The notes under the pieces are model-generated. The model was not told the origin of the DNA, ran no database searches, and worked only from the letters and a program-made list of their open reading frames with translations. From contig OZ036011.1 of NCBI GenBank assembly GCA_964035015.1, positions 8,035,482 through 8,099,481 on the forward strand: a DNA stretch of 64,000 nucleotides, in the 5' to 3' direction. How positions within the stretch are numbered: the stretch's first letter is position 1; each line of letters opens with the position of its first letter. This DNA comes from Corallium rubrum. Taxonomy: Eukaryota > Cnidaria > Anthozoa > Scleralcyonacea > Coralliidae. The translations under genes and the position numbers were made by a program. Positions 16,839 through 64,000 of this stretch are shown piece by piece.

Positions 16839-16927
16839 ACAAAATGCTTGCAGTTGTACGCCATGTTGATTCAACGATAAAATTCATTGAGCTTTTGTCA
16901 CGTAGACTCGGCATGACTGTTGATTGA

Positions 16928-17722
16928 GAGTGGTTCAAACCCAAGAGTCGTCAGATCTAGAGTGGTCAGACCGAAGGTGGTCAAACCGAAGGTGGTCAGA
17001 CTGAAGGTGGTCAGACCGAGAATCGTCAGATCTAGAGTGGTCAGATCTAGAGTGGTCAGACCGAAGGTGGTCAAACCGAAGGTGGTCAGACTGAAGGTGG
17101 TCAGACCGAGAGTGGTCAGACCGAGGGTGGTCAAACCGAAGGTGGTCAGACTGAAGGTGGTCAGACCGAGAGTGGTCAGGTCATATCTAGGGTAGTCAGA
17201 CCGAGAGTCGTCAGATCTAGAGTGGTCAGACCGAGAGTGGTCAGATCTAGAGTGGTCAGACCGCGAGTCGTCAGATCTAGAGTGGTCAGACCGAAGGGGG
17301 TCAAACCGAAGGTGGTCAGACCGAGAGTGGTCAGATCTAGAGTGGTCAGACCGCGAGTCGTCAGATCTAGAGTGGTCAGACCGAATGTGGTCAGACCGAA
17401 GGTGGTCAGACCGAGAGTCGTCAGATCTAGAGTGGTCAGACCGAGAGTGGTCAGATCTAGAGTGGTCAGACCGCGAGTCGTCAGATCTAGAGTGGTCAGA
17501 CCGAGAGTGGTCAGATCTAGAGTGGTCAGACCGCGAGTCGTCAGATCTAGAGTGGTCAGGCCGAAGGTGGTCAGACAGAGAGTCGTCAGATGTAGAGTGG
17601 TCAGACCGAGAGTCGTCAGATCTAGAGTGGTCAGACCGAATTTGGTCCGACCGAAATTGATCAGACCGAAAGTTATCGAACTGAGAGTAGTCAGACGAAA
17701 AGTGGTCAGATGGTCACCCCTC
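16928..17722. repeat. 15-bp minisatellite (GTGGTCAGA core)
   Basis: About 50 units of 15 bp, mostly alternating between two variants: one ending GGTCAGACCG and one with GGTCAGATCTAGA. The period is a multiple of three, so several frames stay open on both strands (Arg-Val-Val-Arg-Pro/Ser on plus, Leu-Thr-Thr-Leu-Asp/Gly on minus). These are not convincing proteins. It lies 270 bases beyond the BAP18 stop. Confidence 0.95.
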
Positions 17723-27400: not shown

Positions 27401-30400
27401 CCTCTCAGATATGAAATAGATATTTACAGTGGTGGTGAAAGATATTTTATAGTGGAGTGGCTAATTCATCAATAACATGATTAAAAGTGTACCCCCCCCC
27501 CCCCCCCAGCAAATTTTAGGACTTTCTTAGCCCCACCTTACGAGATGTTGGGGGGGGGGGGGGGTTAGCCTTTTTGCTAGAAATATTGGGGAGCTATAGT
27601 CCACCGCCTTCGGATATTTACTTAACAAGTTCACAAGACCCACAAATTGGTTAATCTTTTAGGCTCACAATAGCTAAAAATACATACATGAAAAGTTTTC
27701 TTAGTTCTAACTGTAGAAAGTAATTTTTTTCTTTTTAACCTTGTACTAATTTTTTGACAGTAAACACACTAGTTGGTCAGGTTGGTAGATAAACTAACTC
27801 ATTCCTGTCCGAGGGCTTCCCCAGAAGTGAATAAAATCATCTGGCATTAGCCAGAATAAAATACTAAAGACCAATTCAGACAGGAAAGAGTTAAAGTTAA
27901 ACCCAACTAGCAGACAAGGGTTAAGCTTTTCGTTTGGATAAGTTTGAGTCCCTCTTTCTCCCTGTCCTTCCACTCCCCTCTTCTCCCCCTTTGCCTCCCC
28001 TTCCCACTAATACCTGCTACACAGGCTATTAACTTCATGAGTTGGTACTTTTTTAACCCTTTAACTCCCACCATGTCAGGTCTTCCCTTTGACGAGTAAA
28101 ATCATCTGGCTTAGACAGAGTAAAAATAAAAATGCCAAATGGCACAGATGGGAATGAAAGGGTTAATACAAACTCACTAACTCAAAATCTTTACTCATCT
28201 AACCCAAACAAAAGCCCTAACACTAGTGGTCTAGTTAGTAATTGAGTTTTAATACTGTCTAAAATATTTATATGCCAACCTGACCACTATTGTGTTTACT
28301 GCCTAAAAAGACCCATTAAAAATAGCTCATGTCATACAGCAAATTGGAGAATTTGCATTTGACAGACACCGATGTATTTGTTTTCTAAGACATATCATGC
28401 CCAGTTAGATCTGGTCTTTGTTGTAATACTGAATTATTTTGTAGATCTTCAGTCGGAAGAATAACAATTACTTTGAAAAAGAAAGAACTTGACTTGAGAG
28501 CAGGATGTCACTCCTCTTGAAACACAAAGAGGATTTTAGCTTAAGGCAGTAATTCATAAAAATAGCAAAATTTATGTTTTGTCAAGAGGTTTAACAACTT
28601 TTGGCTTTGTTTGGTATTATGTTCCCACTTCAATAGACGAGTTTCAGGGAGTTGCATGCGCATCGTTTTGGAAAGAAATTGGTGGGCTCTTGGCGGGCTC
28701 CCCACAAAGTAAGGAATGGCAAGCAGACTTGCTAGCGAGCCAACAACAGCAGAATAACAATGTTTTATATCCAGAAACTGTATCTACACTTTGTTTATTT
28801 TAAAGAGTATGTTTACTTTGAGTGGAGCTTGCCCGTTTTTTTGAAAAATGATGCGCGCGCAACACCCTGAAACTCACCTATTGACCCTACTAGGTAAACA
28901 AACTTTTGAGCAGATTAGCTTGAAAAAATGGATTAAAGCCTTTTTTTTAGGAAAACCTCATTTCTAAGGCCTGCAGTACTTTTAATGAAAATCAGTCTTT
29001 TACTGTTGTGTGGAATTTTAAGAGGTTAGCTCACTGACTTCAGAATGACATCACATGACAGTTTTACCTATAATAACCCCAAGGTCAGTTCCTAGTTGAA
29101 AGATTTAATTTAAAATGTCATTCTGAGGTCAACTACTAACCTTTTCCAAATTTGAATGGCTTTCAAGGTGTCGAAACTCACTATTATGTTACAAAATCCA
29201 GGAGAGGCCAAGGTACTTTCTCATTCTGCCTTCTGGTCTAGGCAGTCTCGACTGGACAAGTAAAGTCCTCTGGTATTAGCCAGAGTAAATATATGTAAAG
29301 TGATGAAGTGAAATGTTATCAACAGTTCCTGCCTGAACATGCCAAAAATGGCCCCTTTATTCTTTTTACTCTAACACCAGACAATTTTATTTGTCAAAGG
29401 GAAAACCCTCAGACACCCTAGGCAGCAATGGGTCATCCTACATCAAGAGAAAAACACAATTACCTGTAATTTCCTTTCTTGAAATTTATCAGCTCCTTGA
29501 ATTGTCTGAGTAAGATAACTTTTCCAGGAAGTGATGATTGATAAGGGCAAGTTTCACCAGCAAAATAATATTTAACCTTCGTTTTCTTTTGCACAGGACC
29601 AAGTCCACTGTCATTGCTGTTTACTGTAGAAGGGACGGATGACAACACTGAAGAAGAACTATACATGGCCGGAGGAATATGATCACTGGTCATCACTGAT
29701 GATGAACAGTCAGCTGAATCACTTGAAAACTGAGGGCCAGCCATTTGGGATGATCTGCTGCTTGAATAACCAGGTCTAAGGTAAGAGAATGTTATGACTT
29801 AGGATCAATTTTTGTACTAAAGTAAAACACCTATTTAGCAGACATCTATGGGAGCTTGTTTAAGTGTATACTAAGTTAAGAGATTTCATAGTGGTTAGTG
29901 CTTCAGACAGGTGTCTGCTTAAGAGAGGTGTTGCCTAACAAAAGTTTGTTGTAACTATAACATTTCATACGGGTTTGTTTTGTTAGTTCTTGTTGTACAA
30001 GCTTTCTTTAGATGTTAAAACAAAGAAACCTCTGAGCTCTAGGCAAAAGTTAACCCACAACCTTCTGAATACTAGCCAAATGCTCTAGATAGCCATTGAA
30101 CCACAGGCAGTCTGATGTTGTTTTCAGTATATATATATACCGAAGATTGTGGGTTTAATTTCCATTTACAGCAGAGTTCAGAGTTTTCTGAGTTCCACAC
30201 ACACAATTTACACGTATCTCAATTTTAGACAACCCAAGATAAACATTTAAATAATTTTACCTTTTACGGTGAGATTTACTCCTCTTTTCACATGAAAGTC
30301 TTCTCGATACTTCTTCAATAGTGTTTCTAGAGTCAGGTTGAGGTAGTGGTGGCATACGAGGGTCTTGTATAATTGGTCGTAACTGCGTCACTCCTTGCTC

Positions 30401-33400
30401 CACCATCCCAGGATGGCTCTTGTTGTAAGCAACTGAGTGTTTAGTTCTAGTGTTCTTAGTATAACCCAACTGCTGAGGGGGTGGACAAGCCTCCTCACCT
30501 TGTTCCATCCATTGGAAGATACGATTCCTTGCCTCAGGTGGCAAACTATGGTCTTCCTCTACGCTAACCCCACTGTCCGGAGCCGATTCAAGAGTCCCCA
30601 CACTTTCCCATTGTTTTTTAGTATTTGATAATGCAACACATTGTGGTTTTTCTAACATTGTCTCCTGCATACATCCTCCATGCCACGCGGCACTAGCACT
30701 GTCTGTAGGTTCTGTATTAGGATAATATCCACTGGGCATTGGACATGGCTCTACATAGCCAGAATGCAAAGATGATGGGATGACACCAGAATTCCCTTGC
30801 ATTGGATAGCAAGGTCTGAGGCCAAGCCACCCCCCAGTCTGTTGACGTTGATAGTGATTAATTGCAGCTTCCTCAAGAATAGATTTCTCTCTCCTGTTTT
30901 CCTTCTTGTTTTCCCGAATATGCTAAACATGGAGAAGAAACAGTTAGGAAAACAATTAATGTAGATCGACCTCTGCTGCAAAATTACTGGTGATACAATA
31001 CTATGGTGGCTTATTAAATGCTTATTTGCAAAATAAGAGTTTACCCTGGCTAACACCACACAATTTTATTCAACTCAGGGGGGGGGGGACTCTTAGACAA
31101 AAGAGCGTAAAATGAGCATGAGCAACTCAAAATAGTTTCATGTTTTACAAGTGCTGAGTTAAATCACATGATACCAATTAGCTGGCAGTGATCAGATGAT
31201 ACCACAAACAAGACACAACCTAGAATATCGTAGTACTATCAGAGCAATTGACCGCACGTGCAAAATTTGAATTTCTTCAACAATGGAGCAGACAAATAAT
31301 TACTTGCAATAATGAATCACTGATTGTTTATGGCAATGATGGTTTGTGGAGCACAGAAGTAAGGTCTGAGATTATCAACCGTGCTGTCAAAATCTACCTC
31401 AAGAGTAAGAAGTGAAGGAGCCAATCATGCTTAGCAAAGAGACAGAAACTGGATGAAGCAGGCAGTGATTCATTTGTAGCCAATGCCACTGAAGAAATGT
31501 CAGAGACTTCTTGCAATAAAAGTGTCTCCGATGAAAGCTATGAGAGTGATAGCTCCATCTCTGATGACGATTTTTCAGATGATGAAATAGACAGTCATTT
31601 AAGATATCACAAAATCGAACTGATTATGTCAATACTGTATACTAATACTTTAACACTTTAATTTCAAAACAATATAAATAAACGGTTAAGGTTATGCTTC
31701 ATATTATAGTACTTTAATTTCTAAAAAAATATAAATAAACTGGATTGTTTCATTCTGAATCGTTGCCAATATTTTTAGTACTTACACAAAAAGTTATTAG
31801 GCTCAAAATATGGCATTATTTGATACCTCATTAAGTCAATTTCAATGTTGTGCATGCAGCGTACATTGCCCGCTTGATTTGGGCAAGGCCTGTAATTAAT
31901 ACGATGCTTATATCTTTCATATCAGCCATACTGAAAAACCTGCTTGGCAGAATTCAAAAGTTCTATTCAATGTTAGGCAGCATTGTATAACAGTGGGTGG
32001 GCCTGCACAGTGACCCCTGGTCAGATCAGCACCACCCCAAGTGAGGTCTGTAAAATACCCAAAGGCAAATACCTTTCCATCAAATAAATTTGATAAGGAA
32101 TTTTTTATATAGCTTCTTGTTCATTCTCCATTGTTTAAATGCCACATTTTCCAATTTGTCTTGTATGTTTGCTATTTACCTTATCTCATACACTTCCTTA
32201 TCACTTCCTGTTTACATCTGTTTGGCATTTATTTGTGATGGTTTTTGATATAAAAAAAACTTCTAAGAAAAGCAGCATCAATGTTCCGGGACATTCCATA
32301 TATTGTCCAGTCTTTTTCAATAAATCTCATTTACTCATTTGATGAATAGACTCGGTAATTGCCAAGCCAAAATTTACTAGACCAAAGCTTAGTGACTAGG
32401 AGAGTAATATTGACTGCTCGACTAAGTAGTGCAACAATATTTTGTCTGTGCCCTAAAAATGAGTTCCGCCATATAAAAGAATCAAGGAAGTTCAAACTTA
32501 CAGTACAAACAATATACATGTATAAATAGATATGACTAAATGGTGGTATACATTATGAGGTTGTGTGATAGATATAATATATACTTTATCAATTATTATT
32601 TATATATAACGTACTTCACGATGTACTCCAGCCAAATTAACAGCAGCTCGTTCCTCCTGCTCTCTCTCAAGCAACACTTTTTCTAATTTCTCAATTAAAA
32701 TTTTAGCAAACTCCTCAGGAGGCAATTGATTTCTAGCTTTGGGCAGATTTTTGGTTCTCTGAAAAAAAAGAGAATAATAACCTTTACAAGATATCCTTTC
32801 CTAATATGCATGTATATCATTGATAAGGGACACTTGTGATATTTGTTATTACATGTAAAATCATAGAGAGCAAAAAAGACATTGACTCCTTGTGTCAATG
32901 GGTTTTATATTGTATTCTAGACATCAACGAGTTTTGCACATTGTTCAGCTATGAGTATTCCATTCTCACACTGGGTTGCCGAGAAACTCCAAGTACAAAT
33001 ATTTCTTGTTTTTTTTGCCAGATTTTTTTTGCCCACTTAGAAAGATATAATTCAAATATCACAAATTTAAAGTATTGCACAGCACTTCTAAACATTAGTA
33101 GCAAGGTTAAGTTTGACTTCTGATGCGAGGGCCAATACTGAATTTGGCTCTGATTATGAGCAGTAGATCATTTAATGACAGTGTATGGGATTTCAGTAGT
33201 AATAGATTTTGGTAGAAGTAGTCCAAATTTTGCAAGTTTGAAGGGACGATGCAGACTGATGATGTGATCTGGTCACTCTAATTTTCATAGCTCTAAGGTG
33301 AGAAGAAGCTCTTCCTTGTCTATAATGTCATCATCATGTGCTTGCAGAAGTAAGATGCCTTCAATGTTTATGTTACTCACCATGTTTCAGAGTTTCAGTA

Positions 33401-36400: not shown

Positions 36401-37984
36401 CCGCGTTCGACAACCAGATTAGCTCTTTTGGCCATGTTTATCGAACTATCAATTCGCACCGTAGGACAAGCCCCGCGCTACGAGAGAAAATCGATATTCG
36501 TATTTCGAGTGAGGTTAAAGAGCTTATGAGAGACGGTATGAATATATAGTGTTTGTTCGTCCTAAGTACGGATTACAAACAACTTTATGTCATTTGAAAT
36601 GAAAGCGGAAAAAGCAAAATAGGCCGCTAGAACTCTTTTTGGACGAGAGCGAACCCGCATGTATGTTTCTCAAAGTGAAATCGACAAACTCCGACAGGGA
36701 GTATGTTAATTGCAGCATAGCAAGTTTGTTTTAGTTCTGAAGTTGACAAAACATTCACACTATGTTACTCTCAAAAGATAAACTGCCCTTTCGAATTCCT
36801 CCGTATTATTAATAGTGCAAAATACAACAGCCGACATACACTGAGTTCAATAATCTCGACATAGAAGCGGAAGGCACCTTTAACCCAACAGACAAATAGA
36901 TTTCAATTAATTGCAGAGTGGTCAGGGAAGCCGACACGAAATGAACCAGAGACTATTCACTAGCTCGTCCGTTCATTTCACCGTGATTTCGCCGACTTCG
37001 TCTCGCTGATAGTACAACGATTTGGCTCTTATCGGTCTCACGTCGATGGCTTTTACATGTAAACGACAACAATAAATACGACGGCGAGGGAACAAAGGTA
37101 CTAGAAAGCAATAGCCAATACCTTTGATAGGGCCGCGTATTAAATGTAACAACACAATTTCAAAAAACTTACCCCTCTTTTTCGCCGTCGACTTGTCTGT
37201 TGTTTGACCTTGCAGCCGTATCATAACTCGTCCATTGACGATGATTTGGCTCTGCTTCGAAAGCTAACACTTTCTCTTCGGGTAGCGGCGGTAAAGCAGT
37301 GCCAACAAAGCGATTATTTCGAGTAGAAACCCGATCTTTGTTCACATTTTTGCCCGACTCCACAGCCCAGAGTTTGTAAATATCTGAACGAGTAAACTTG
37401 GCGAAGTGAAAGTCATTCATATACGAGAGTATCGCCTCCTGAGCGCCGTCAAACGTCGACTCGCTTGGCGGCTGTCCACTGTTCAACTTATGCTTCACTT
37501 TCGCCCGAATCGAATCCTGAAGAATACCACCACATAAGTCCTTCGTGTGCATGAAGTTATTAAATGTTGTGTTCGCCTTCGAGGTTGCAAGATTTGACCT
37601 GGCGTTCGCTAATCGCCTGAATTCCTCGCATGATCGCCAGAAATCAAGTAGGGATTCGTGTTTCTGAAGTCGTAAATACTCGCGGAACATTTCGTAGCCA
37701 GAACGATCGGAAAGTAATCCTTGAAGTGATGAGCATCCCTCGCAGTAACTTGGCTTTGTCGCACTTCCCTCGGGTTCAAATCCTAAAGGAGCCATCATCT
37801 CTTCTTCCATTCCACAGTTTGAATTATTCACTGGCTCGTAAATCTCCTTACTCGACGGCCGTCGGGGCACAGCACTATACTTCATTTGCTTGTCTGACGA
37901 ACGAGACAGATTTGGGTCAGAATCTTGGCCTGGCGGTGCCGGTCGAACGCCAGAACTCGAAGTGTGTTTCTCTCTGTTTTCCAT
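24421..37984 (-). CDS. axin: Axin, Wnt destruction-complex scaffold (7 exons)
   Basis: Minus-strand coding exons in order: 37984-37173, 35165-35022, 33959-33887, 32758-32615, 30922-30261, 29775-29464 and 24544-24421. Together they give 2271 nt and 756 aa, with phase conserved at every GT-AG junction. The N-terminus has a tankyrase-type RPAPPGQD (residues 14-21) and LGFEPEGSA (67-75). The RGS domain (about 87-206) is the APC-binding module in the family. NDSDVQSLSSDALTDDS follows in exon 2. Exon 4 encodes the GSK3-binding helix (about 360-380, FAKILIEKLEKVLLE). Conserved RIFQWMEQGEE and IIQDPRMPPLPQPDS blocks come next. The DIX domain (about 677-756) starts KVKYYFAGETCPY and ends in the isolated last exon (YFFKKEASEEDCGAVFEEI). 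Known role: cytoplasmic scaffold for beta-catenin phosphorylation. A canonical beta-catenin-binding helix is not evident. Start ATG 37984-37982; stop TGA 24423-24421. Confidence 0.95.
25225..25430. mobile_element. Short MITE in Axin last intron
   Basis: Terminal inverted repeats TAAAGCCTAGTTTACACG and CGTGTAAACTAGGCTTTA, with internal complementary AAAAACTTGTC-type segments. 206 bp, no coding capacity. Palindromic TA ends would suit a TA-targeting element. Confidence 0.8.
25602..26023. repeat. 25-bp tandem array inside inverted ends
   Basis: Thirteen or so units of GTTTCTGACGAAGGCCCTTC plus GTTAC (25634-25991) are enclosed by inverted GTTTCGAGCG / CGCTCGAAAC and outer AGTACTGCC / GGCAGTACT ends. 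The unit core exists in two forms, GAAGGCCCTTC and GAAGGGCCTTC, which are reverse complements. It lies in Axin intron 6. The ends match the element at 14367-14860. Confidence 0.9.
26390..26590 (+). pseudogene. Non-LTR retrotransposon C-terminal relic
   Basis: Two plus-strand frames read GKRPRGRRRF and then, after a frame change, ESLYAELKQMAQDRDRWKQE. This resembles the tail of LINE polymerases, where a Gly-Arg-Pro motif is followed by an AxDRxxW segment. It is short, frameshifted and stop-containing, in Axin intron 6. The clade cannot be named. Confidence 0.5.
28053..28166. mobile_element. Short MITE with TTAA ends, repeated through Axin introns
   Basis: Ends TTAACCCTTTAACTCCCA and TGGGAATGAAAGGGTTAA enclose AAAATCATCTGGC...AGAGTAAAA. 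Related fragments lie near 24646, 27831, 29262 and, reversed, 29370 and 31044. All carry a CTGGC-TTA-GCCAG-like core. TTAA ends suggest a piggyBac- or Kolobok-type mobiliser. Confidence 0.65.
31224..31632 (+). pseudogene. Unrecognised coding relic in Axin intron 4
   Basis: A plus-strand frame of 63 codons reads ...LSEQLTARAKFEFLQQWS...IIVYGNDGLWSTEVRSEIIN-type sequence. It hits one TGA at 31413-31415, then continues in the same frame for about 70 codons with a Ser/Asp-rich acidic tail (SYESDSSISDDDFSDDE). The composition looks protein-like and a single stop breaks it, so it may be a decayed transposon or retrocopied gene. I do not recognise the family. Chance is the main alternative. Confidence 0.35.
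37091..37128. promoter_or_regulatory. Paired TCF/LEF-like motifs in Axin intron 1
   Basis: AACAAAG at 37091-37097 and its opposite-strand counterpart CTTTGAT at 37122-37128 both fit the WWCAAAG core. They lie 45-80 bases downstream of the exon 1 donor on the Axin strand. Further single matches occur at 38759 and 41085. Axin genes are Wnt-feedback targets in several animals; function here is untested. Confidence 0.35.
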
Positions 37985-40900
37985 AAGTGTGTTGTTCGGG
38001 AAAATATACCAATCTAAAATTCACATGTACACGAGAACCGAATAGCGGTCGGAACGTCGCTCACAGATGCCAACGGTAGTCCACACACAACTCGAAAACG
38101 ATGAGAACGATCTGTTAGTCAAGCCACGCACTCCCTACAGTTAACTTCTCTCGAACAGTTTCGTTGATGACTAGCGACAAGATCGGCTCTTTTCTCTCAC
38201 AAGATCAAACGGGACGCCGCATTCTGCCTCAAAGCAAATATTTTATAAATACAAGATCGAAGTCCTTCAAGATAAATGTGACGAGAGCATAATATAAGCA
38301 CAATGAGCTGATTGGAAACGACTTGGTCGTCCTCGACCTCAAATCTCGCAACAAAAATCGCCTGTGACACGGACTGCTCCTTACTACGATGAAAACCAAA
38401 CCGAACTGCATTGGCATCGGAGGTTAGCGAACTGGTGGGCGTTTGGTTGGAATTGTTGAAACCCTACGAGTTGCCTTTGGCGGTCCAACTTCAAACGGAC
38501 CGCTTCTTAAGGAGGCGGTGTTAGGTCGATCAATCCCTTGGGATAAGACGTCAAAGCGCTTTTTGACACCGCACCAATGAGGAACGTCGAAGGAGTTGTT
38601 AGGGCTGTCGCACGTGCTTGTTGCTTCTCTCACACATGCTGACGATTCGCGTAATTAAGGGCAGCTGTGGTAGTGGTTTGGTTTGTCGGCTGCGCGTCGA
38701 GAAAGCCAACTCGATTGGAGGACGCCAATTCGCGATAATTATTCGCCTACTAACTGCGGCTTTTTTCAAAGATTCGTGGTGAACATCAGACAAAAAGAGT
38801 GAAAAAGATGGCTCGGCGAATTATTAAAGTCGTAAAAACGACAACAGAAACCGCGAAAGCAGACGCTAAATGTCTGTCGCTTGTTTTGGCCCGACTTGTC
38901 CGCGGCGACGGCCTGAAGAGCGTCGGAAGAGCCCGACGTGGCGACAAGAACCTATCAGAATCTATGTTGGCCCAAAGTAACGCCTGATATTGGCCGAAAT
39001 ACATTGATCCGTTCGTTAGTCATCAAAACAACAGTACGTCACTAGCCACTTGGAAAGGTCGGGTTTTTTACTCTGTGGCACGCGCGCTGACTTTGCCTAG
39101 TAGTTCGAACGTTTGGGGGGTCGCTGATGATTTATTTTTTTCGCCTTCGTGGGTTATTGATCGTGACGTTTGTAGTAAAGCGATTAAGCAGACACCCCAT
39201 TTTGGAAAATAGTTCGGCTCGTTAATCGTTCTAATGGATTTAATACTTTTGATAACAAGGCCCTCCTTCTCAACACTTCCTGGCCCATTGGTGTGTGGCG
39301 GCTCTTTTTTCGTCTTCCATTTTTAAATTGCTACAAAGGTACCGTTCGACTAAATATCGAATCTACCAACCAGGATCGGAGCAGCGACATTATATCGCGG
39401 CAATTACGTATATCACGGGGGGCATTGTTATCCTAATAAGTGGTTACATTGGCGTTCATTTGAAAATCTTTATCGCCCGTTCGAGTGTTATAACTTGAGC
39501 AAATAGCGGAGCTCAGAAGTTGTATTAAAAACGACCACTTTATCGCATGTAGCGAGGTGCGAATCAAGGAATGACACTGTTTTTAATATTGCAAAACTGC
39601 GTTATCAAATCGGGTCTGGTCTCAAAGGAGGCCGACTGTTCCTTGATGGCGGAATCAGCAGATTACGAGACGCTCAAACAGCTCGGCTTTTTTACGCCGT
39701 TACAAAAGAAATCATTTTTTTGTTTATTATACGCGAGACACAATATAAACGGCGGCGCTTAGGAAATTATACAGGCTTTTGGCCGGGAAAATTGAAAGAC
39801 GAAAATTGCTACTTCGGCTATACTGAATATTGTCATGTTCCAAATGTTTTTACAAGCTATTTATGATGAGCTTTTAATGGATGAGCCAGTCACTTAGGCG
39901 CTCAATTCAAACGCATCCGGTTGCCAAGAAATCTTAAAGACTTCACAGCAATTTTTTTGATTGGTGTGTTTAGTTTGCTTTTCAAGTTTTGTGGCTTTTG
40001 TTTTCTCCAATTTAAACTTTCTTTTGTCGCATAGCCTGGATAATGTCGCCGATGTCTGTCAGGAGGAAAAGATATTGACAGATAGAAGTTCTCTTTTGTC
40101 AACACTTCGGTTTTCTATGAAACGCCGTTTACTTGACTCAATATATCTGTCCTGTGGGTTTTGTTTTGGTCCTACAGCTTGTTAGAAGCAAAAACACGCA
40201 TAATTATACAATCGGCACTGACAAACTCTCAGTTGGACCTTTTCAATAGAGCTTATTTCGTTACTATATATTTTTATTTCGTTACGTTCACTTTACTTTA
40301 CGAATCTATTAACCATTTAAGCCGAAATAGATATACACATATATTGCGTTCGTCGTATCGCTACTAATAGCACGCCATGCACTGGCTTAATAATATGGCG
40401 CAAATTTAAAGTTTATTACATGCTCACGAGACGCGATATCAGTTTTAATTTCACACAATCATTAACGAGTGTCGACGCATAAAAATAATCATGCTCGATG
40501 ACATTCCCGAAATCGATCAGTATAAACGATTTTTAACGAAATTTACTAAAAATTCTTTACTCCCTGACTGGCGATAATTCGGCAAATATGTAAAATACAC
40601 TGCAATTGACTATTTTATAAAAACGAACCAATGCGACGATATGAATCGTAATTTTTTTGTCTTTGTTTCCGAAACAACACAAAGTACTTAATTATTACAG
40701 TACCAAAAAAAACACGAAAAAGATGAAAAAACCCAAAAATTTCATGCTTGAATGCATTTTGTGATGTCACTTTATACCTGGCGAAAATTTTGGGTTTTTT
40801 CCCATTTTTTATTTTACTCTGATTAATAAGTGAACAAATCTATTGCAAATAAAATATTGATGACCTTTTCAGTCTCATATATAAATGTTGAGCCTTAAAA

Positions 40901-47776: not shown

Positions 47777-47862
47777 GCCCTCCGTGGCTCATGCAGTGGT
47801 CAGAGCATTGCACTAGAATCGCAAGGTCATGGGTTCAATTCCTGTCGGAAGGCCTGTGTAGT
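47777..47862 (+). mobile_element. tRNA-derived SINE head, interrupted
   Basis: A tRNA-like module with an A box (TGGCTCATGCAGTGG) and a B box (GGTTCAATTCC) spaced as in tRNA genes, followed by GTCGGAAGGCCTGTGTAGT. It is cut by the transposon at 47863-55587. The downstream half appears to resume at 55588 (TGTAGTCGCATTTATTTTCG). It is not a clean cloverleaf, so a functional tRNA is unlikely. Confidence 0.7.
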
Positions 47863-48034
47863 GAGGCCCTGTTAGGGGGGGTGCACATGTCGCCAGTCTG
47901 AACTTCAAAACTTGTCGTGTCGCAATTTTAAGACTTGGTCATGTCCTTGTCGTTATTTCGGCTGAATTGCCAGTTGCCATAATAGACCATAATAGACATA
48001 ATACTAAAAGCAAAGTCTAAAAAGGATAGAACTT

Positions 48035-48040
48035 TTTATT
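48035..48040 (-). terminator. Candidate poly(A) signal of the NHL/SAP gene
   Basis: AATAAA on the minus strand, 53 bases after the stop codon and inside the transposon end. Confidence 0.6.
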
Positions 48041-48092
48041 TCAACAAAGTTTAATAACTTTTAGTCTCTTTACAAGTATTCCATTGACTAGT

Positions 48093-51000
48093 CTACAGAT
48101 CCAGGCGATTAGGACGAACCACAGTTCTACCAGATGATGTCCTCATCGGTAGTATAGGTGTGGACTCGACATATACATTTATATGTTCATCGTCTGACTC
48201 CTGAAATTCTTCGTCACTACTACGACTGTCTTGAGCTTCAGGTAAAAGATCTTCCACATTACGAAGGTCATTTAGCAGTTCCTCGTAGAATTTCTCAGAA
48301 AGTTTTAAAGATGTTGATTGTTGCACAAAATCATTTGCATCTACTATTCGTAATACATTGTCGCGATGAATGTTCACATCTCCGTGAAACTGGAACTCCA
48401 AGCAATCTTCAAACGTAGGTACAAATAACTTGATGTCAAAACAGGGACTGTGCTCGTCCTCCGGGACATCAGATATAACGACACCCACAAAGAACGGACC
48501 ACTTACAGAAACTCCACGAATGTGATCTTTCACAACTACAACCGTGTCCATTTGAAATAAATTGACACCAGTGCTTTTATCAGCAGGTCTACGTCGATTA
48601 TCAGTATTATCCTCATTTCCTGGCCTAGGTTGGAGTACATCAGCGAAATTAATCGGTTGCGGTGTGGGATCATCAGCTGTATAAGCAAACAAGGGCAGCG
48701 TACCGACGTTGTCTTTAGTTGTTTGGTTTCGCACTGTCCGTTGACGTACGGGTTTTCCAAAGCTATCTCGCCAATCCCTCATCACTTTTTGGTCTTCTTT
48801 CGTCATTTCTACTGACGGAGGGAACGAAATTGAAGGCAGTTCCCTAAAGGCATATTCCATCGCTTCTGGTACTTCGTAGTACGAGGATGGTGAGGTATAG
48901 TACAGGAATCCAGTGTGTGTAAGCTGCTTTAATGACTCTTGAATGGTAGGGCCGAATAAGTGGGCAAATTCAATTACAGTAGGCATGTCATTTCTTGAAC
49001 GCATTTGGCTGAAGAAATTCTCTACGACAAGGGTTAGAGTTGCTGCTAACTTAATATCCTTGTGGAAAGCAGGATTGACGTCGTTGAGAAAATTTCCTAG
49101 AGATGATAAGGACTCCTTCAAAATATGCATGCTACGTAGACTCTTCCATGACACCGTTCCTTGGGGCCCTTGAGTTGCAACTTTCTTCCCAATGAGATTT
49201 TGCACTTCGTTGACCCACTGTTCACAAGAAGAAATAATGTCATTCAGGGATGACAGTGCCTCATGTATGGTGCGCACTTCCGCCTGTACTCCCTTCAAGT
49301 GCACCCCAAACATCTTGTATAGTACATCGAGCAGCTCGAGAAATTTGCATAACGAGTTGGTAGGAGTAACCATTCTTACAGCTCCAACAGCGGTGTCAGT
49401 GACGTAGATAGTTTTTCCCTCGGCGCACAAGGCTGTTGGCTGGGAGAAGGAGGCAGAATGGCTTGAACCATCTTTTGAGCCATCTTTGCCAGATCCAGCA
49501 AGTATTCTAATTGTTACATTCGAGCCAGCGGGTGACGGTTGCGATAGTTCTCGGACAACACGGGAGCCACGGTCGGTAAAGATAATTCTTCTGTCACTGG
49601 TGGACTCGAGTCCATGCACGATCTGACAGTCGGGTGTACCATTCTTCACAACCAGGACAGCCTGTGAAGTCCCAAGGTCGAACTTTGTAATACCGCCTTC
49701 ATTTCCTGAATCACCAATATACAAGTTGCTTCCATCAAAGGCCAATCCAAAAGGCTGTGAGTTAACGGGCAGTTTCATAAGTAAGTTGACACTTCCTCGC
49801 AGATATGCGCCATTGTTAACAATGTTCACTTGGTAAACACCGTGGGAATTGCAGTCAGTCACCATAAGCATATCTTTGGCGGCGGCAATCACAGCCAGAG
49901 GACTTACGAGGTCTTTATCCAGAGACAGTTTATTAAGGTCAGAAAGACAATAATTGACCCTTTTTCTCTCGTTCTGGAACCACTTGGTTAGAGCTTCTAC
50001 CAAAACCTTTTTCCTGGAAGCCTCGGGGACTTGAACATCTACTTCTTTAAGTTTCATACGAAGCTCTTCAACTTTCATTTTCTTGGGCTCAATAAATACT
50101 GATGGAACTACAGCTTTGTAAGCAAGCCTTCCATGACCGGTGTCAGCAACAAAGACGACTCCACCAGAATAAGTCACACCATTTGGACTCTTTAGTGACT
50201 TTGACACTTCTGAGATATCAACAGGATAGTGAAGCCGTGCCAGAAACAGGCGGCACCTTTTGTTGTCGGTAATAAAAAGACTACCATGATCAGCGACACA
50301 GACGCCCGTGGGATTTTCCAGCACTCCCTTGCAATTTCCCTTGTATAAGCGGAACATCTCAGGAACTATGGTCTGAACAACCCGTGGAATTTTTCCAATA
50401 ATGTCTCTTACAGATGGTTTAGCTATAACAAGCAAATTTTCAACTGACATTCTATCACGATTTCGGATGGCGTCGAGTGTCGTTGCCTGGTGCATCTGAC
50501 GTTTAATGGTTTCATCTACATCATTATAAAGCACGCGAAGATTTGACAGATTAAATCTTTCACCACTGTGGTACAAAAACCAGTTGGCGAAGGCTGACTT
50601 GAAACATTTTCCAAGATGAACTGCTTCTGGAACCGGATTTAGGTACTTCATATCCCTGTCAATTGAACCATTTTGAGAAAGGCTAAGAATCTGTTCCATG
50701 GCCTTTTTGTTACTTTCCTCGCAATCAGCCGTCCACACAAGTACCATCAGCTTCACGCATTTGGAGCCACACTCCAGACAGTGGTCACAGGCGCGCAATG
50801 GACTGTCTATAAATCTGTGTCCCTTTTCATAACAAGCTTGACAAACTTCTTGGGTCTGTAAGCATTCTAAAGAGAAAAAATGATATATAGCTACCGTATA
50901 TAGATCTATATATGAGCTCTAAAATTATAAGCTAACATTATGCTTTTTGGTTTCGCTCAGGAAATATCTCCCAAATGTACGACGGTGAGTTTTCAAGTTG

Positions 51001-54000
51001 AATAGCATAATACTATATGTAAATCGATGTACCTGGACAATGGCTTGTGCAAGATTCTCCTAAATTGGCGATGACGTTCATGTCTGTTGGAATGTATTGA
51101 ATTAGACATCGAAGACAGATCTGCAGCTGCTTAACCCATTTCATTATTGTATCTGCTTTATCTTCTCCAGAGACACGTTTTCCACTGTATTCTAATCCAA
51201 CAGGAAGGGATAATCGATTATCAAGTGAGGTGACAATTTCACAGTTAACTTCAGTAACAAATGCTGTCTTAAGGGTCTCTGGTTCAGGAGACGGATTCAT
51301 CCTGACATAGTCAAGATCAACTGGGAAAAGAAGTCCCACCAGGTTTTTCACGCGTGTATCAAACTGTAGGCCTGGTTTAATAGCAATTCCATCGGTAGCT
51401 AAACTAACTGGAATGGTACGAAGATTTGGAAAATCCACTAAAGACGGTAAAGGAACTACATTGCTTTCTCCCGACTGTGCAATCAGCAGAAAAGTTATTA
51501 AAAGACTTTTGATGATACCACTCTTAGTCGTATAGCCTGCCTTTCCTTTGTTTCTGGTCGATTTGGATGGCACAAAAGGAAGGTTCCAATCTTTCCATTG
51601 GAAATTATACTTCCCACCTTTTTGCTGTCCCTTGAAACCTGGACCACGCAACAAATTCATAACTCTGTCCTTGCCGTGGAATGCGAGAGTTTCGGTGAAT
51701 AATGTAACGTCATTGTTGTGGCAAAACTGCTTCCGAGGGTCGCCTGACTTTTGAGCAAACTCTAAAGCGTTTTCAAGCATCTTATAAAATATATGATTTC
51801 GCGGAAGGTTTCCACTTTGAATTTCTCTTTGCAGTGCAACAACAACCGGATCCAAGTCATCTAATGATCTGTAAAAGGAATTGTGTAATCATCTAAGTCA
51901 TCAATGGAACAAAATCTCCAAAATCTTCAAAAATCAATGGTTTTAAACGAAAATCAATGGTTTTAAACGAAACAGTAAATAACGATCACTCACATAAAGC
52001 CAATGTTGTCAGTATCATTCCCCTCATCAGTTATATCCTCATCAATAATATGGTCTAATATATCATCGTTGGTTGCACAAAGTTCCTCACTCTCCACATT
52101 TTCTCTTAAAAATGAAACAGATAAAACAACTTTATCCACTTTATTGACTTTATTGATCTTTAATTTCAAATCTCTTCGATAATTACATTTACAAAGCAAT
52201 TAATTTGTAACACAAAAAACAAGTGGCTCTAGAAGATTTAAATCGGCCGCTGTTGAAAGACGTTGAAACTTTTCTTACGTTGCTTGGTACATTTGCATTC
52301 TCGAGAAAACGTCTCTTATGTCTCCACTTTTCACAGGCTTGCAACTATCCCAGTGATCTGACAAAAAACAAAGAGTAAGAATGTTCTAATCAGCAATGAA
52401 GACATTAGCAATTTATTGGGAGTAGAAGAAGAGAAAGTAATACAGTTCATATACTTACTATCCTTAAAATGCTGATAGTATCTTAAGCGGTTGGTCGTTC
52501 GAATGCTACCACACTTTCCACACTTCACATGGATTTCAGTTATCGCGTGTGAGCCAGGAAAACTAACTTGTACGTCTGCAAAGTAAAAACAAACATTAAG
52601 TATATTAGATTATATTTGTACCACTCACCATTATGTTACCTAATGTACAAGAGTATTGAGTATTAGATCTCAACACATCGTCATAATGTCATACATTATT
52701 AAGACAATTAAATGATTAACAATTTTCTCTTGATTAAAACCACTAATCATTGAGAAAAAAATAAAATAAATTCAGATAATCCGAAATTCCATGTCATCTT
52801 AAAAACTAAAAACTAAAAATGCAAGTTAAACTCAAGATACAAAATTGAAACAGTGGTATTTCACCTGGACTGCAATGTTGTCATGACTGATTTAAACCTG
52901 GTTCTTATCTGAATTTGTTTGAATGTATATTTCCATAAGATTTTGGCTGACTAAAAACAAACTCTTGTAGCTTTCCTTCACAGTAATTATCGCCACATTT
53001 ACACATTGATACTGGTAATTGTTGATTTCTAGAATGAACTCCTTTCGTAAACACACATCATGTCTGGTAAAATAGCTGTTTATAAAGATGCGAGGGGGAT
53101 TTATATACAAACTTTATTTACTTCTTACCTTTTTTGAATTTTTCAAGTAGTTGTTGCTGTTCCGTAAGTCTTTCAAAAGTAAAATCTTCAACCCTACCAA
53201 TGTCACCAGTGTATGCGCGAAGCTTCTTGAGGAGTTCTTCGTCTTTCACAACACGCTCGTCACGTTTGTAGGGTCCTCGCAAAACTTTACCAAGCTTACT
53301 TGTAGGGTCTTTAGTTAATCTGTTGCATCTGTATTGGATTTCAAGCAACCGCACTAAAACATGAAGACACACGTTACTAAACTAAAATTGTCAGCTGTCG
53401 GTTCTGCGTGGTGTTGTAATATTAGTGTCACCATTTATGACAGTTATACATTCAAAGTAGAATACCTAAAACATACTATTAAATTTTACTTGCCTAGAAG
53501 AGTGCACTGCCCCATTCCACTATAAACCTTTGTGCGCAGATTTTCCCACTCCATTTGGCTACTAGCAATGTAAGTCTTTCCAGCATTAGATGCACCATCA
53601 CGATTGTCACATATTCCTATTTCTATGTTAAAATCACCAATCTGCCACCTTTTAGCATCAGTTAACAATCCATAATTCTTGCGCAGATCTGACTTGAGGG
53701 AATGTAAATCCTTGTGGCTTTCATGTAGGGCTACAAGGGTATTTCTAGTTCCGGACTGTTTACTATGACCAAACTTGTAAACCTCAACAATAGCATCACA
53801 TGTCAGATATGTATCATTTGCCTGTAATGGAGTAGACCTACTGACTTCACTGGCACTACCAGTGTTTAACCGACTTTGATCTGCAGAGTAGTCACATACG
53901 CTGACCCCAAACTGGGTGATAGTTCTCTGCTGAAAGTTATGACTCTTGCTCACTTCAGTAGAAGGCTTGTCAGTTAAATCAGAAAGAGAACTCGAGCAGC

Positions 54001-55116
54001 TAATTGTAGATGCTGCACTTGAATAAGGAGAGGATTCTCTTTTTCTTTTCTTTTGGTATGGGCCCTGTTTTGAATGGTCATGTTGGTGGCGTCGTTTTCT
54101 TCTTTTTAATTGCTCTGAAAATATTGATATGATATTAGGTCATATTATATTAATATTCTAATCCCTGAAAATTAGTATCCATTGATGAATAATATTAATG
54201 ATAATGATAATAACAGAACTGAAGGCTCAGGGAGTGGTGACCCTGCATTGCCAGCTGGTTAGCCGAAAGCATTTTCTTGCCTTAATGGGCTATCAGTTGC
54301 AAGAAGGTCCAAGAATACTTGTCCACAGGTGTTGGGTAACCTGCCCAGTTAGTCCAAGCTTGGTCACAATAAGTAAGTCAGGAGCACAATTGGTCACAAT
54401 TGCTAGGGTCAAGCAGGTGTTATACTTCTTAATATGAAGGAAATTAAATTTGGTCCCTACAAGTTCTCTGAAAGTGCATTTGTCTGGCTTTGCCTTCCCT
54501 GACTATGGACACTATGTAGTTGTTCATTGTTGGGAGTCAATGTCAGGAAAAAACCTACCACTGACACCACTGTCCTTACAGTTATAATTCTATAATCACT
54601 ATAAGGGTATTTAGATAACTTTTAATATTTAGGTTTGCTTCATTCACACATCGCACACATGTAAGTCATGTAATTGCACGTATTGAATTTGTTGATGACG
54701 TTCATAGCAATCATATTAAAAATAAAAAAATAAATTAAATTAAATTAAATAAAAGGTTATATAAATTACATATAAACTAATATAAAATTCATAAAAGCAT
54801 GTAAAACGTGTAGTTACATGTATGTAAAAAATTGTTAACCCAAATAATACTAATTCACTAAATACTAATGGTCACCAATAAACTACTAACTAGACTACTA
54901 AATATAAACTACTATGGTCTACTATAAAGGACTACTAATGTCACTAATAGTGCATATATTTGTTGTCATGCGAATATTAAATTCGTACATACCAGGGCTG
55001 ACAGTGACAGGGCTATTTGTTGATCGTTCTCTCTTCGATTTCTTCCTATTCTTCTTGACCTTAACCTTTTTTTCTTTTCCCTCTTTGTCTTTTTTGTGCC
55101 GCTTGTGCTTACCCAT
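48093..55116 (-). CDS. NHL-repeat, SAP-like, zinc-cluster protein; putative transposase (8 exons)
   Basis: Exons in order: 55116-54993, 54114-53494, 53353-53129, 52575-52459, 52357-52279, 52104-51994, 51868-51033 and 50866-48093. Together they give 4887 nt and 1628 aa with every phase conserved; intron 2 uses GC-AG. The N-terminus (1-80) is Lys/Arg-rich and nuclear-like. A zinc-finger-like CGKCG...H...C segment spans about 340-372. LATDGIAIKPGLQFD (582-596) resembles the first catalytic region of P/THAP9-type transposases. A Cys cluster spans 706-741, then WTADCEESN (748-756) and EAVHLGK (785-791). NHL-type strands span about 885-1205 (SPNGVTYSGGVVFVADTGHG, QPFGLAFDGSNLYIGDSGN). A SAP-like helix pair lies at 968-1003. 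VENFFSQMRSRNDMP (1319-1333) resembles a transposase third catalytic region. An acidic tail ends VVRPNRLDL. The domain reading is inference. The gene is uninterrupted, so the copy may be recent. Confidence 0.8.
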
Positions 55117-56049
55117 GCTTAACGATTATAATTAGTACTCTTTCATGGGATTTAAAACAAATTAAAAACGCAAAGCACTTACTGTAAAATGCTCAAAACC
55201 ACAGAGCAGAACGTGTCTATTATCGTAAATCACCGTAAACCTTTCGTAGACCTCTCGTGGCGTGTTTTCAGTTTAATTACCGCTGACCAGGAATCGAGTT
55301 AAATGCTTCCGTGATTTGATCGATATCTTTGATCTGAACATCCACGGGAGCATCTGAATCATCTGATGACTCTGATGGTCTCTGATTCGATCAGTATTCA
55401 AAAAGCTACAAAACACAGCGTCGCTGTCGAATTTTAAGAAAAACAAGATTCGCTGTCATTTTTTTACTACTCTCCATTCGCTGTCGCAATTTTAGTCAAC
55501 TTTGGTTTCGTTTGTCGCCATTTTAGCTCTCGCATGTCGCTGATTTAACGCAATGTCGGCTGTCGGAATTTACCCTAACAGGGCCTCTGTAGTCGCATTT
55601 ATTTTCGCAACTGGTCCCGGTCTGGTCTTAAAATGTTTATATTCTACACTTGAATTTTCCTTCACCCAAAATCCTGAGAACATGCTATGTAATCGAGTGA
55701 AATGCTCAATATTACTTATAATATACCCAATTCAACTATATAAGCTTTGCCCTATATATCCATAAGCATAGAGCTGGCGGCAGCGCCTAAAAGGGGGTCT
55801 GATTTTCCGTGCGGCCAGGAAATGCTGGCTCTGGAACGAGATTTCGGGGACTGCTCTTGAAACAATGTAAAAATGCCTTTATTAAAAACAATACAAACGA
55901 ATTGAATAATAAAACTTGTCCGGCACTGTGCAAGCTGTCTGCACAAATGTAAAGGGCACAGAACAAAAAAGAGTGAGGTTATGTAATAACTAAGGTTAAT
56001 ATATAGCTAGGTAACAATGTGTGACGTATAAAAGGTTGGTGTAGGGTGT

Positions 56050-59641: not shown

Positions 59642-62600
59642 ATGGCGACTTGCAACGTTGTTAACGTGCTTTGTCCGAATGGTCGTCGACAGAAGGTGAA
59701 GTTATCACCGCACATGACTTTGCTTCAGGTGAAAATATAAAGGATACTTTTTTGTACGATTTTGACCAATTTATTATTATATTTTACCGCTAAATTATAT
59801 CAAAATACTGCATTTTCTTTGTAGCTGATACAGGAAGTGTGTAAAAAGCAAAGTCTAAATCCAAATAATTGCAGAATTAGGTAAGAGAAGGGTGTGTAAA
59901 AAGGATAATTAGGTTTATTAAATAAAAGTATCCTACTATACTTGTGTTTCAACTTGTTTTTTTGTACAACTTTGGAATACTTGGCCATCTATGTATGGTA
60001 GCTACTGTACTGTACTGTACTGCACTGCACTGCACTGCACTGCACTGTACTGTAAGTGTACTGTACTGTACTGTAAGTGTACTGTACTGCAAGTGTACTG
60101 CACTGTACTGTACTGTACTGTACTGTACTGCACTGTACTGCACTGTAAGTGTACTGCACTGCACTGTACTGTACTGCACTGTACTGTACTGTAAGTGTAC
60201 TGCACTGTAAGTGTACTGCACTGCACTGCACTGCACTGCACTGTACTGTACTGTACTGTACTGTACTGTACTGTACTGTACTGTACTGTACTGTACTGTA
60301 AGTGTAAATGTAAGTATACTGTACTTACTGTACTGTACTATACTGTACTGTACTGTACTGTACTGTGCATTATAGATGTTTATACAGTACAGTAGTTTGT
60401 GCTGTAGTCTATAGTATATTAGGATAGATGGAGTGATTGTGAGTTAGTGGGTCAGTTTAGCACATATAAAGCTAGCCCATAAACTTGGTAGTTGCTCACA
60501 TTTATTAGCTATGTAGATATGTGGTAGATTAACTATGAAGCATAGTTATTTATAGCCATGTGCAGTAGCTGCGTAGCTCAGTAGCCCTGTAGTAAGTAGC
60601 AAATTATAGCCAGTATCTATGGAAACAGTATCCTTGTAGCCAGTAGTCATAGTTACCATGCAGCCAGTGTTTATGATTCTATGTAGCCATTTAACCAGTA
60701 TTTATTTAGTCACATAGCCAGTTGCCACATAGCTGGTATATGGCCAGTAGCCATATAGCTAGCATAGCCATATGGCCAGTAGCTACACAGCCAGTAACCA
60801 TATAGCTAGTAGTCATATACAGTGATGGCTCCTGCTTGATCTGGTAGGGGGGGGGGAGGGTGCTGAGCAAGTGAAGTGAGATCAGGCCTGCTGCATGGGG
60901 CATGACCGAGGCAGGGTGGAGCACCACTGAGGGAGCTATGGCAGGGGTCTGGGGACACAGCCCCCAGCAGGGTCCAGGGTGCAGGGGCTGAGCTGGTGGT
61001 GGGGCTAGAGGGTAGGGGGGTGAAGCCCACCCGAAAAAATTTTTTTATCCCTATTAATACCTATGAATCATATGATGGCTAATATATGAATCATATATCT
61101 ATGAATCATATGATAGCATGCAGTTTATATGGACATTGAATGAATGTGTCCTTTAATACTTGGATTTTACAAGACAATTGGCACTCCCCTTGCACCTCCC
61201 TTGGCCAAGGCCAGGGGGTGTGCACCCCCCTTGGCCAAGGGGGTGTGCACCCCCCTTGGCCAAGGCCAGGGGGTGTGTGCACCCCCCTGTAAATCCATCA
61301 CTGGTCATATATAACCAATATCAAGGTAGCTGTTAGTGATAGGTAGTAACAAGTAGTTGTGATTCAGTCACCTATATGTGTTCTGACCAGTGGACCATTT
61401 TCACAGAATTTTATTGGGGTTTTTCTGCTATTTTTCTGGTTAGACATCAAAGGAAAATCTTGGACAGCTCTCTGACTGTTCGTTTTGCTAACTTCCCGAA
61501 TAATGCACATCTTGAATTAATTGAGTCAGCTGAGGAACACATACATACAGGTGAATGAATATCTAGCATGGTACTTTTCCAGAAATCTCATTATTATAAT
61601 CAGAACTATATTATAATTAGCCTATTAAAATTAGATTTTAAATTTTCTTTTAAATCTTGTATAGCCAAGAAGTGCATCGTTGCCTTACAACTGGAAAGTG
61701 GAGATCGACTTGTTCGTGAATTTAATTCTGATGACTCTCTATTTAAGATACTGGAGCACTGGAAATCTCAATCAGCAAGGTGATAAAATGGTTCAGCTAG
61801 ATTGCAGGGTCTTGTCATTAGGTTGTAAATTGGTTGATGTTGGTTTTTGTTAATTTTGTGTTAATCTGATATTATTTTAGGATATCATTTGATGATAATT
61901 CAGATGGAATTGTATGTATTTATGCCAGTCAAGAGGTAATTGCATTATACCTGTGACAAGATTTACATTGGTTAAGTTGATCATAATTATGGCAGTTGCA
62001 GGGTTCCCATTATGATTTTGATCTGCCATCATATATATCATATATGCCCAGTTGTATAGCATGACCATTCTGGGGGGGAGGGTGTACCTCTATTGCACTT
62101 CCTCAATTACCGACCAACTCATTTTTATGACCAATTTACCAACCAATTTCCTATCAATTTACCAACAAATCACGTTTTTCTCCACAAAATCTCTGTTTTA
62201 CCAACAAGTTTTCCAAAAAGTGGGGGAGGTATCACCCCCCCTACACCCCCCCCCCCTCCCCCTGCACGCTATGCCCCTGTATATGCCAATGTTTGAAGAA
62301 TGCTATTCAAGGACTCAGTGACATATGAGTGTATACTCATTGATACTGTTAAACTAAGGCAACTAGGTTGAATGGATTAGTTGTTGTTTTTTTTGTACAG
62401 ATCAGAGGACTGGAAAAACTGAAGTCAACTACTTTGTCTATGATTGGATTAAATGGAGGAAGGGGAGTGATAAGGTTTGTGGCTATATGGGTGACATTAA
62501 CTGCCATACCTTTAGTTTGGGTGGTTTTACACTGTAGGTGCCATCAATGTATTGCTCTGTTTTGTTTTGTTTTTAAATTTTTAGACTTATTCAACCATCT

Positions 62601-64000
62601 TTAACTGGGCCTGAAAAGGATGAAAGTGACGTGATGGAAGGTTGGTAGAGTGAGTGTTCTATTCTGTCCTGTTTGTTGTAGACTTCTATGTAATGTATTG
62701 AACAGATGTAAACTGCAGATTGAGAAGTACTTCAGAAGTATGGTACAGTACAGTGATAGTACAGTACAGTGGACTGTGGTGGTACAGTACAGTACAGTAC
62801 AGTACAGTACAGTACAGTACAGTACAGTACAGTACAGTACAGTACAGTACAGTACAGCAGTACAGTGCAGTGCAGTGCAGTACAGTACAGTACAGTACAG
62901 TACAGTACAGTACAGTACAGTACAGTACAGTACAGTACAGTACAGTACAGTACAGTACAGTACAGTACAGTACAGTACAGTACAGTACAGTACAGTACAG
63001 TACAGTACAGTACAGTACAGTACAGTACAGTACAGTACAGCAGTACAGTGCAGTGCAGTGCAGTGCAGTACAGTGCAGTACAGTACAGTACAGTACAGTA
63101 CAGTACAGTACAGTACAGTACAGTACAGTACAGTACAGTACAGTACAGTACAGTACAGTACAGTACAGTACAGTACAGTACAGTACAGTACAGTACAGTA
63201 CAGTACAGTACAGTACAGTACAGTACAGTATAGTATAGAACAGTATGGTGTGGTATGGTATGGTATGGTATGGTATGGTATGGTATGGTATGGTATGGTA
63301 TGGTACAGTACAGTACAGCAATACAGTGCAGTGCAGTACAGTACAGTACAGTACAGTACAGTACAGTACAGTACAGTACAGTACAGTACAGTACAGTATA
63401 GAACAGTGTGGTGTAGTGTGGTATGATATGGTATGGTACAGTATCTATTGTTGTATTTTTATCACTTATATTTAAAATGCTGTTCTTGAATAAACTTTTT
63501 AAAAATATAACTACCTGTACAACTTATCTCAATTTTAGGAGTGAGTGAAAAAGCCACTTCTCAGAACGACAAGACGGAAACAACAACTACTCCATCAGTT
63601 CCTACCAAATTATCAGCAGAGGAAATGGATGTGGCCTCCCGTAGCGCAAGCAGTGTGTCAATGTCCAGTCAAGGTAGTGAGGATGACAGCATGCAATGCG
63701 TTGACACTGTGTTACAACCCATGCCACATTCCGAGAAGTCAAACTTACCTAACCAATCAGACAGCGAGACTTTGAGTAGGTCACACAAGACCAGAAAGGA
63801 TGGGAAAGGAGCGAAAGGACAGGACTTGTCCAGTGCAATGGATATTGAACAGGAGGGCAATGTGGTTGAACCAGGTGGGGGAGTGGATAAAGAGTCAGCC
63901 ACCTTTTCTCCTGGTGCCAGTACTTCCAGGTCAGCCGTAACAGTGGAGGTGTTCAGTGGAGTTGGACGAACGTTGGGTGGAACAGGTATCCCGAGGCCTT
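59642..64000 (+). CDS. ASPSCR1: ASPSCR1 / TUG homologue, UBX-domain tether (partial, 8 exons)
   Basis: Exons are 59642-59728, 59825-59880, 61444-61550, 61665-61779, 61881-61935, 62401-62474, 62585-62640 and 63539 to the window edge. Together they give 337 codons with conserved phases and GT-AG introns. The start MATCNVVNVLCPNGRRQKVK (ATG 59642) opens the TUG-type ubiquitin-like domain, residues 5 to about 80, including LTVRFANFPNNAHLELIES, a family signature. A second ubiquitin-like region follows (about 87-165, IVALQLESGDRLVREF ... KSTTLSMIGLNGGRGVIRLI). A Ser/Thr/Glu-rich linker follows. The last visible segment, VEVFSGVGRTLGG, corresponds to the conserved PFxGxGxxLGG block. The C-terminal UBX domain lies beyond the window. 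In mammals the protein binds p97/VCP and retains GLUT4 vesicles; that role here is by homology only. Confidence 0.93.
60002..60370. repeat. (TACTG)n microsatellite, ASPSCR1 intron 2
   Basis: Pentanucleotide array of TACTG with frequent CACTG and AAGTG variants, about 70 units. Its reverse complement, CAGTA, forms the array in intron 7 (62744-63440). Apparent Cys-Thr-Val/Tyr frames are artefacts. Confidence 0.97.
60820..61303. mobile_element. hAT MITE with perfect 8-bp duplication
   Basis: Ends CAGTGATGG and CCATCACTG flanked by GTCATATA at 60812-60819 and 61304-61311. G/C-rich interior shared with 22040-22812. It lies in ASPSCR1 intron 2. Confidence 0.9.
62744..63440. repeat. (CAGTA)n microsatellite, ASPSCR1 intron 7
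   Basis: Nearly 700 bp of CAGTA repeats with scattered CAGTG and CAGCAGTA variants and a TGGTA sub-block at 63246-63305. The long Tyr-Ser-Thr-Val-Gln and Leu-Tyr-Cys-Thr-Val frames are repeat artefacts. Confidence 0.97.

Follow-up and report, generated by a model that had tools for sequence, protein, structure and literature searches.

The stretch of Corallium rubrum DNA analysed here (64,000 nucleotides of contig OZ036011.1, positions 8,035,482 to 8,099,481 of the forward strand; hereafter the window) holds, at window positions 47863–55587, an intact and recently moved DNA transposon with a single gene, whose product carries NHL repeats and a SAP-type domain. We put at about 0.84 the probability that this unit is an autonomous cut-and-paste transposon and that its gene encodes a transposase with a P-related catalytic core and an NHL/SAP insertion domain. 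The gene is probably the transposon's own transposase and not cargo, a point missed by the first-pass annotation of the window, which had described the element. An NHL-bearing P-like transposon is apparently an undescribed kind of animal transposon, and its group is perhaps a separate superfamily; no NHL-bearing transposase was found in the open-licence literature, as judged on titles and abstract openings among the matches listed.

Read directly from the sequence, the unit is 7,725 bp long and ends in 15-bp terminal inverted repeats (TIRs; GAGGCCCTGTTAGGG) at 47863–47877 on the plus strand and 55573–55587 on the minus strand, complementary at 15 of 15 positions and with GAGGCC at the tips. 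TGTAGT stands on both flanks (47857–47862 and 55588–55593), and the perfect repeats and perfect 6-bp duplication reported by the first-pass annotation thus both stand. Allowing two or fewer mismatches, the window contains just two matches to the 15-mer end, where shuffling predicts 0.03. Copies and ends were then searched throughout the 474-Mb genome, where the exact 15-mer occurs 102 times and its reversed control not once, which rejects an accidental inverted repeat. Of these places 100 were listed: 24 are single ends, and the other 76 combine into 38 inverted pairs. The pairs span 233–265 bp in 34 cases, 497 bp in one and 7,724–7,725 bp in three. Some of the single ends belong to copies whose other end is mismatched or lost (for example L015, L025, L026 and L027).

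Twenty of the 39 other scored places were fetched, and comprise two full-length and 18 short copies. Of the two full-length copies, one has 100% identity to the window copy and the other, with a single base missing, 99.99%; two of the three full-length copies share a contig, at a distance of about 236 kb. Their duplications are TGTAGT in the window, AGACAA in the 100% copy and ATATAA in the 99.99% copy; because the three differ in duplications and flanks, duplication of one insertion together with its surroundings was rejected. A perfect 6-bp duplication, with a chance of about 3e-4 each, flanks 19 of the 20 fetched copies, and the 20 duplications of the window and these 19 loci vary in sequence, with an A+T content of 79%. 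The right-truncated short copy L015 is instead bordered on either side, by eye, by about 21 directly repeated bases. In 16 of the 18 short copies the left 101 bp (47863–47963, sometimes with about 10 more bases) are joined to right sequence from element position 7594, the right 132 bp of the unit (55456–55587), and L025 and L028 have other junctions; a single deletion derivative, or a small number of them, probably gave rise to the short copies by spreading. As to whether copies always carry the NHL gene or its remnants, a question raised by the first-pass annotation, the three full-length copies do, whereas 35 of the 38 exact-end pairs are too short to hold it.

A tRNA-like sequence at 47778–47853 on the plus strand (Rfam tRNA, 35.9 bits; ARAGORN found no tRNA) closely precedes the insertion. 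This is the head of the repeat hosting the insertion (47778–47862 and 55588 onward), which is tRNA-derived and presumably a short interspersed element. When the window flanks were joined, 751 genome candidates arose, of which 40 were scored, and 43 matches were obtained; 40 of the 43 cross the junction uninterrupted at 93–95%, and the one empty site read, L079, is uninterrupted and has a single TGTAGT. The window element therefore landed in a tRNA-derived repeat that is dispersed in the genome. No target rule follows from it, since Rfam matches were found at none of the 20 other fetched loci and the duplications varied, and targeting of tRNA genes as in Dada was rejected, as only one of 21 copies fits it. 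Inverted ends, a fixed-length duplication, dispersed copies and an empty site, the marks of a TIR (class II) DNA transposon, are thus all present, and the mobility that had been inferred earlier gains support from copies with differing 6-bp duplications and from the empty site.

The element carries one minus-strand gene, modelled by hand, whose eight predicted exons form an unbroken frame of 1,628 amino acids. All exon junctions are in frame and the introns run from GT to AG, with the exception of one GC donor. Exon 1 (54993–55116) holds the start codon and is lysine-rich, exon 2 (53494–54114) has the GC donor, exon 3 lies at 53129–53353, exon 4 (52459–52575) shows a CxxC motif by eye, and exons 5 and 6 lie at 52279–52357 and 51994–52104. 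Exon 7 (51033–51868) holds the candidate catalytic D585 (DGIAIKPG, codon 51391–51393), and exon 8 (48093–50866) holds the remainder through to the stop codon, beyond which stands the poly(A) signal AATAAA at 48035–48040. Three open reading frames (ORFs) of at least 100 amino acids were found within the element, each located in exons of this gene, in agreement with the earlier description of exactly one intact eight-exon gene with its poly(A) signal.

Within exon 8 follow, in order, the end of a cysteine-rich module that is of zinc type by eye and lies between D1 and D2 (exon 8 portion 50757–50864, from the alignment), the candidate catalytic D752 (DCEESNK, codon 50724–50726, from profile comparison), a DxxH-type motif that takes the form ExxH in the window (EAVH, residues 785–788, 50616–50627, from alignment and profile comparison), the NHL/SAP/NHL insertion, the candidate catalytic E1320 (VVENFFSQ, codon 49020–49022), conserved in relatives, and the C-terminus. 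The insertion has six NHL-like repeats by motif (residues about 889–1210, 49350–50315), which likely form a six-bladed propeller, with a helical SAP/HeH domain (49989–50087) between repeats 2 and 3. NHL matches in Pfam at E 6.8e-11, with two stretches passing alone, and the repeats also give PDB profile matches. The SAP part matches HeH at 1.6e-3, under its cut-off, and SAP lies above the cut-off in the relative L032 (2.9e-7). Of the label NHL/SAP/zinc protein given earlier, the NHL part therefore stands, the SAP part falls below the cut-off in the window and above it in L032, and the zinc part is a reading by eye. For the N-terminal 426 residues the Pfam scan gave only YABBY_N at E 0.027, under its cut-off, and no THAP match; comparison of this part with the core gave no match, and the relatives showed no clear one. 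At positions 3076–3477 of locus L059, within the unit of the relative C108 described below, an upstream open frame by eye resembles part of exon 2 (SICV..., EW...), where tblastn gave no match, and a conserved N-terminal domain is possible.

The catalytic core was compared with six P transposases from the same genome, chosen among the 129 places that the P-element RNase H model matches. These 129 matches, many with long frames and seven with a frame of 1,007 amino acids, mark the genome as P-rich. When D1 and the D2–DxxH part of the family profile were joined with the zinc-type module omitted (10 of 17 loci had enough sequence for inclusion), they aligned as one stretch onto P D1, D2 and DxxH (P = 2.1e-5, probability 77%), and none of 150 column shuffles reached the joint score. 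D1 alone aligns on P D1 at P = 9.7e-5, against 0.46 for the reversed control, and with four other references at P = 1.6e-4 to 5e-4; the first 420 profile positions likewise match around D1 (P = 5.3e-4), locally and not globally. The D2-to-DxxH spacing is 33 residues versus 36 in P, and that from D1 to D2 is 167 versus 73, the larger distance holding the zinc-type module. About 530 residues separate ExxH from E1320 and contain the NHL repeats and SAP domain; in P transposase, the interval from DxxH to E is where the GTP-binding domain is inserted (PMC7776569).

Several results weigh against a P-related transposase in a mobile family of this kind. First, the uncut family profile missed the P core, as locally it matched best elsewhere (P = 0.042) and its global alignments failed; the significant joint match required omission of the zinc-type module. 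Second, the D2–DxxH piece taken alone is weak (P = 0.010–0.032), though placed on D2 and DxxH, and the region around E has no significant P match, as five of 150 shuffles reach its score. Because the part after the propeller aligns without significance, E1320 is proposed from conservation and position. Third, no Pfam transposase family was reached: the TNP-like RNase H model stayed under its cut-off in the pieces where it appeared (E 0.035–0.039; two of 31 and two of 12) and was absent from the whole-protein Pfam scan, and a PDB search with the catalytic-part profile returned nothing at E up to 10. Fourth, the window protein carries ExxH, not DxxH, and one of the 20 fetched copies, L015, is without the 6-bp duplication, its match ending 43 bp short of the right end. 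Finally, P is closest only among what was compared by profile, which of the DxxH superfamilies P, hAT, MuDR, Kolobok and Dada was P alone.

The alternative that survives best, though we consider it unlikely, is that the element belongs, as a divergent member, to the P superfamily and does not form a separate lineage. Some P-superfamily elements make 7-bp duplications, so that duplication length would not be a rigid bar, and the profile match over D1, D2 and DxxH points the same way. The position of the insertion, at the place of the P GTP-binding domain (PMC7776569), also speaks for membership. On the other side, the duplications are of 6 bp, against 8 bp in P and zebrafish P-like elements (PMC7776569), Pfam gave no THAP or GTP-binding match and left the TNP model under its cut-off, and the 48 places of the gene family, compared by eye, overlap none of the 129 P-model places.

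These 48 places come from a genome search with the exon-8 protein and include the three identical copies; the remaining matches have 26–42% identity, and a stop is present in 24 of the 48. The earlier remark that such proteins look like expanded families in cnidarians was tested within the C. rubrum genome alone, by these 48 exon-level matches. In the alignment of relatives, DGxALKPG, the cysteine-rich module, (S/T)DCExxNK, PDxxH, the NHL/SAP region and xVEN appear in this order. Among rows covering each site, which include close relatives of each other, all by eye keep D1 (10 of 10) and both D2 and E (12 of 12 each), and 7 of 10 keep DxxH, the exceptions being the window (ExxH), L047 (a gap) and L046 (at the frame end). 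Pfam detects NHL in 8 of 31 relative pieces and SAP in 3 of 31. Five near-identical copies of a broken relative (L040–L044, C1:72386435-72413330) stand in tandem at a spacing of 5,716–5,717 bp.

In the relative C108, which has 32% protein identity to the window gene, a single open frame of 1,236 amino acids covers exons 7 and 8 in fused form. C108 lies in a unit of 9,818 bp with perfect 15-bp ends (TGGGGTCGGCCAGGG), unlike those of the window element, and ACCAAG duplications. This was the sole perfect end pair in its scan (up to three mismatches, duplications of 4–9 bp), which also gave two more, imperfect sites, one of them an inner 0.8-kb repeat; the same scan of C198 gave 20 rows and none perfect, and no ends are therefore claimed for it. 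The C108 left end has 28 genome matches, C108 itself counted, and its 15-mer end has 43 (at most one mismatch) versus 5 for the control. For the short copies of this second family, no paired end was found in the fetched flanks of L077 or L078; a partner end lies 2.1 kb away for L078, and none lies close by for L077. A third family (L034, L038, L039 and L054; four copies) and a fourth (L035 and L037; two copies) have sharp shared 3' ends in unrelated flanks, reading inward GGGGGGTCATTGGGGGATCC and GAGGGTGGTAAAGGGGGGG. A pattern search for the third, in which only 3' ends are recognisable, found 10 places versus 1 for the control. A G run near the tip is seen by eye at the known ends of each of the four families.

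Much of this bears on whether the NHL gene could be host cargo in a non-autonomous element moved in trans by an unrelated transposase, which we regard as improbable. No curated transposase family matches the protein, and the 35 gene-less exact-end pairs must move in trans. Against this stand the P-like D1-D2-DxxH match, the want of any other ORF of at least 100 amino acids in the element, and the occurrence of a gene relative at 32% identity in a unit with different ends, which accidental capture would not predict. Least probable of all is another known superfamily with 6-bp duplications, for although duplication length and, for Dada, the adjoining tRNA-like sequence would suit, Dada is described as without TIRs and inserting in small RNA genes (PMC3706591) and Rfam matches number 0 of 20 at the other loci, fungal IS3EU families end in TAYGG (PMC12730594) and this element in GAGGCC, Pfam scans gave no hAT family (which bears on hAT6), and a Polinton/Maverick was rejected because there is no second gene, no integrase or DNA polymerase B, and all three long ORFs fall in exons of one gene.

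For an autonomous transposon with its own NHL/SAP transposase, we propose the following mechanism. The enzyme would be an RNase-H-type DDE transposase whose D1-D2-DxxH part is related to that of P, with the candidate E, the fold and the catalytic activity predicted from sequence, and with an NHL propeller, holding SAP between repeats 2 and 3, in the place of the P GTP-binding domain. Judging from the domain types, a dimer or higher complex would bind the inverted ends, cut both and excise the element, which would then be joined to target cuts staggered 6 bp apart, yielding the 6-bp duplication. The lysine-rich N-terminus and CxxC motif (exons 1–4) may serve in end binding, and the SAP domain suggests DNA contact. 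The propeller could touch the target DNA, chromatin or a partner, much as in other transposases insertion domains act in forming hairpins or in joining to the target (PMC8230255). The same protein would mobilise in trans the internally deleted 233–265-bp copies. We lean towards a new superfamily-level group of animal elements with 6-bp duplications, in which a SAP-holding NHL propeller has replaced a P-like GTP-binding domain and acts in target choice or complex assembly, an in-chain parallel to RAG1-RAG2.

If this is true, a set of NHL-containing genes would be transposases rather than host proteins, and another propeller joined to an RNase-H transposase would stand beside RAG. PMC9587614 lists roughly 20 DDE superfamilies, to which one more group would be added. 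Activity can be tested directly, given three intact copies that are nearly identical and the short derivatives. Elsewhere in the window, minus-strand frames at 30257–30922 and 37169–38020 by eye resemble parts of an Axin gene, with an RGS-type stretch and more sequence like Axin, and long simple tandem arrays lie at 62743–63407 (GTACA, 133 units), 60003–60366 (TACTG, 71 units) and 16926–17710 (a 15-bp unit, 52 times).

Among known systems, the P element and THAP9 share with this element a related D1, D2 and DxxH region, short TIRs, internally deleted derivatives and a domain inserted between DxxH and E (PMC7776569). They differ in that the duplication here is of 6 and not 8 bp (PMC7776569), that the inserted domain is NHL/SAP and not GTP-binding, with no Pfam match to the latter, and that the protein, at 1,628 amino acids, has an extra zinc-type module between D1 and D2 and no THAP match. 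Dada resembles the element in its 6–7-bp duplications, multi-exon gene, long zinc-motif transposase and DxxH (PMC3706591), and differs from it, with its perfect TIRs and varied targets, on the two points given above. Kolobok also has DxxH, and in many of its lineages a zinc finger is described after the second catalytic residue and before the third (PMC9587614), but it makes 4-bp TTAA duplications, whereas the element makes 6-bp ones of variable sequence and has its zinc-type module between D1 and D2. IS3EU, compared by ends alone, differs in its fungal TAYGG termini (PMC12730594), and hAT elements, including hAT6, differ in that Pfam scans of the element protein and its relatives gave no hAT transposase domain. 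TRIM-NHL proteins and NHLRC2 likewise have NHL repeats, as the PDB profile matches indicate; the element protein differs in having no RING or B-box in its Pfam scan and in joining the repeats to a catalytic core within a mobile unit. In the Transib-derived RAG1/RAG2 system, a beta-propeller protein works with an RNase-H transposase, the propeller belonging to RAG2, a separate kelch-propeller protein. In the C. rubrum element, by contrast, the NHL repeats lie inside the putative transposase chain itself.

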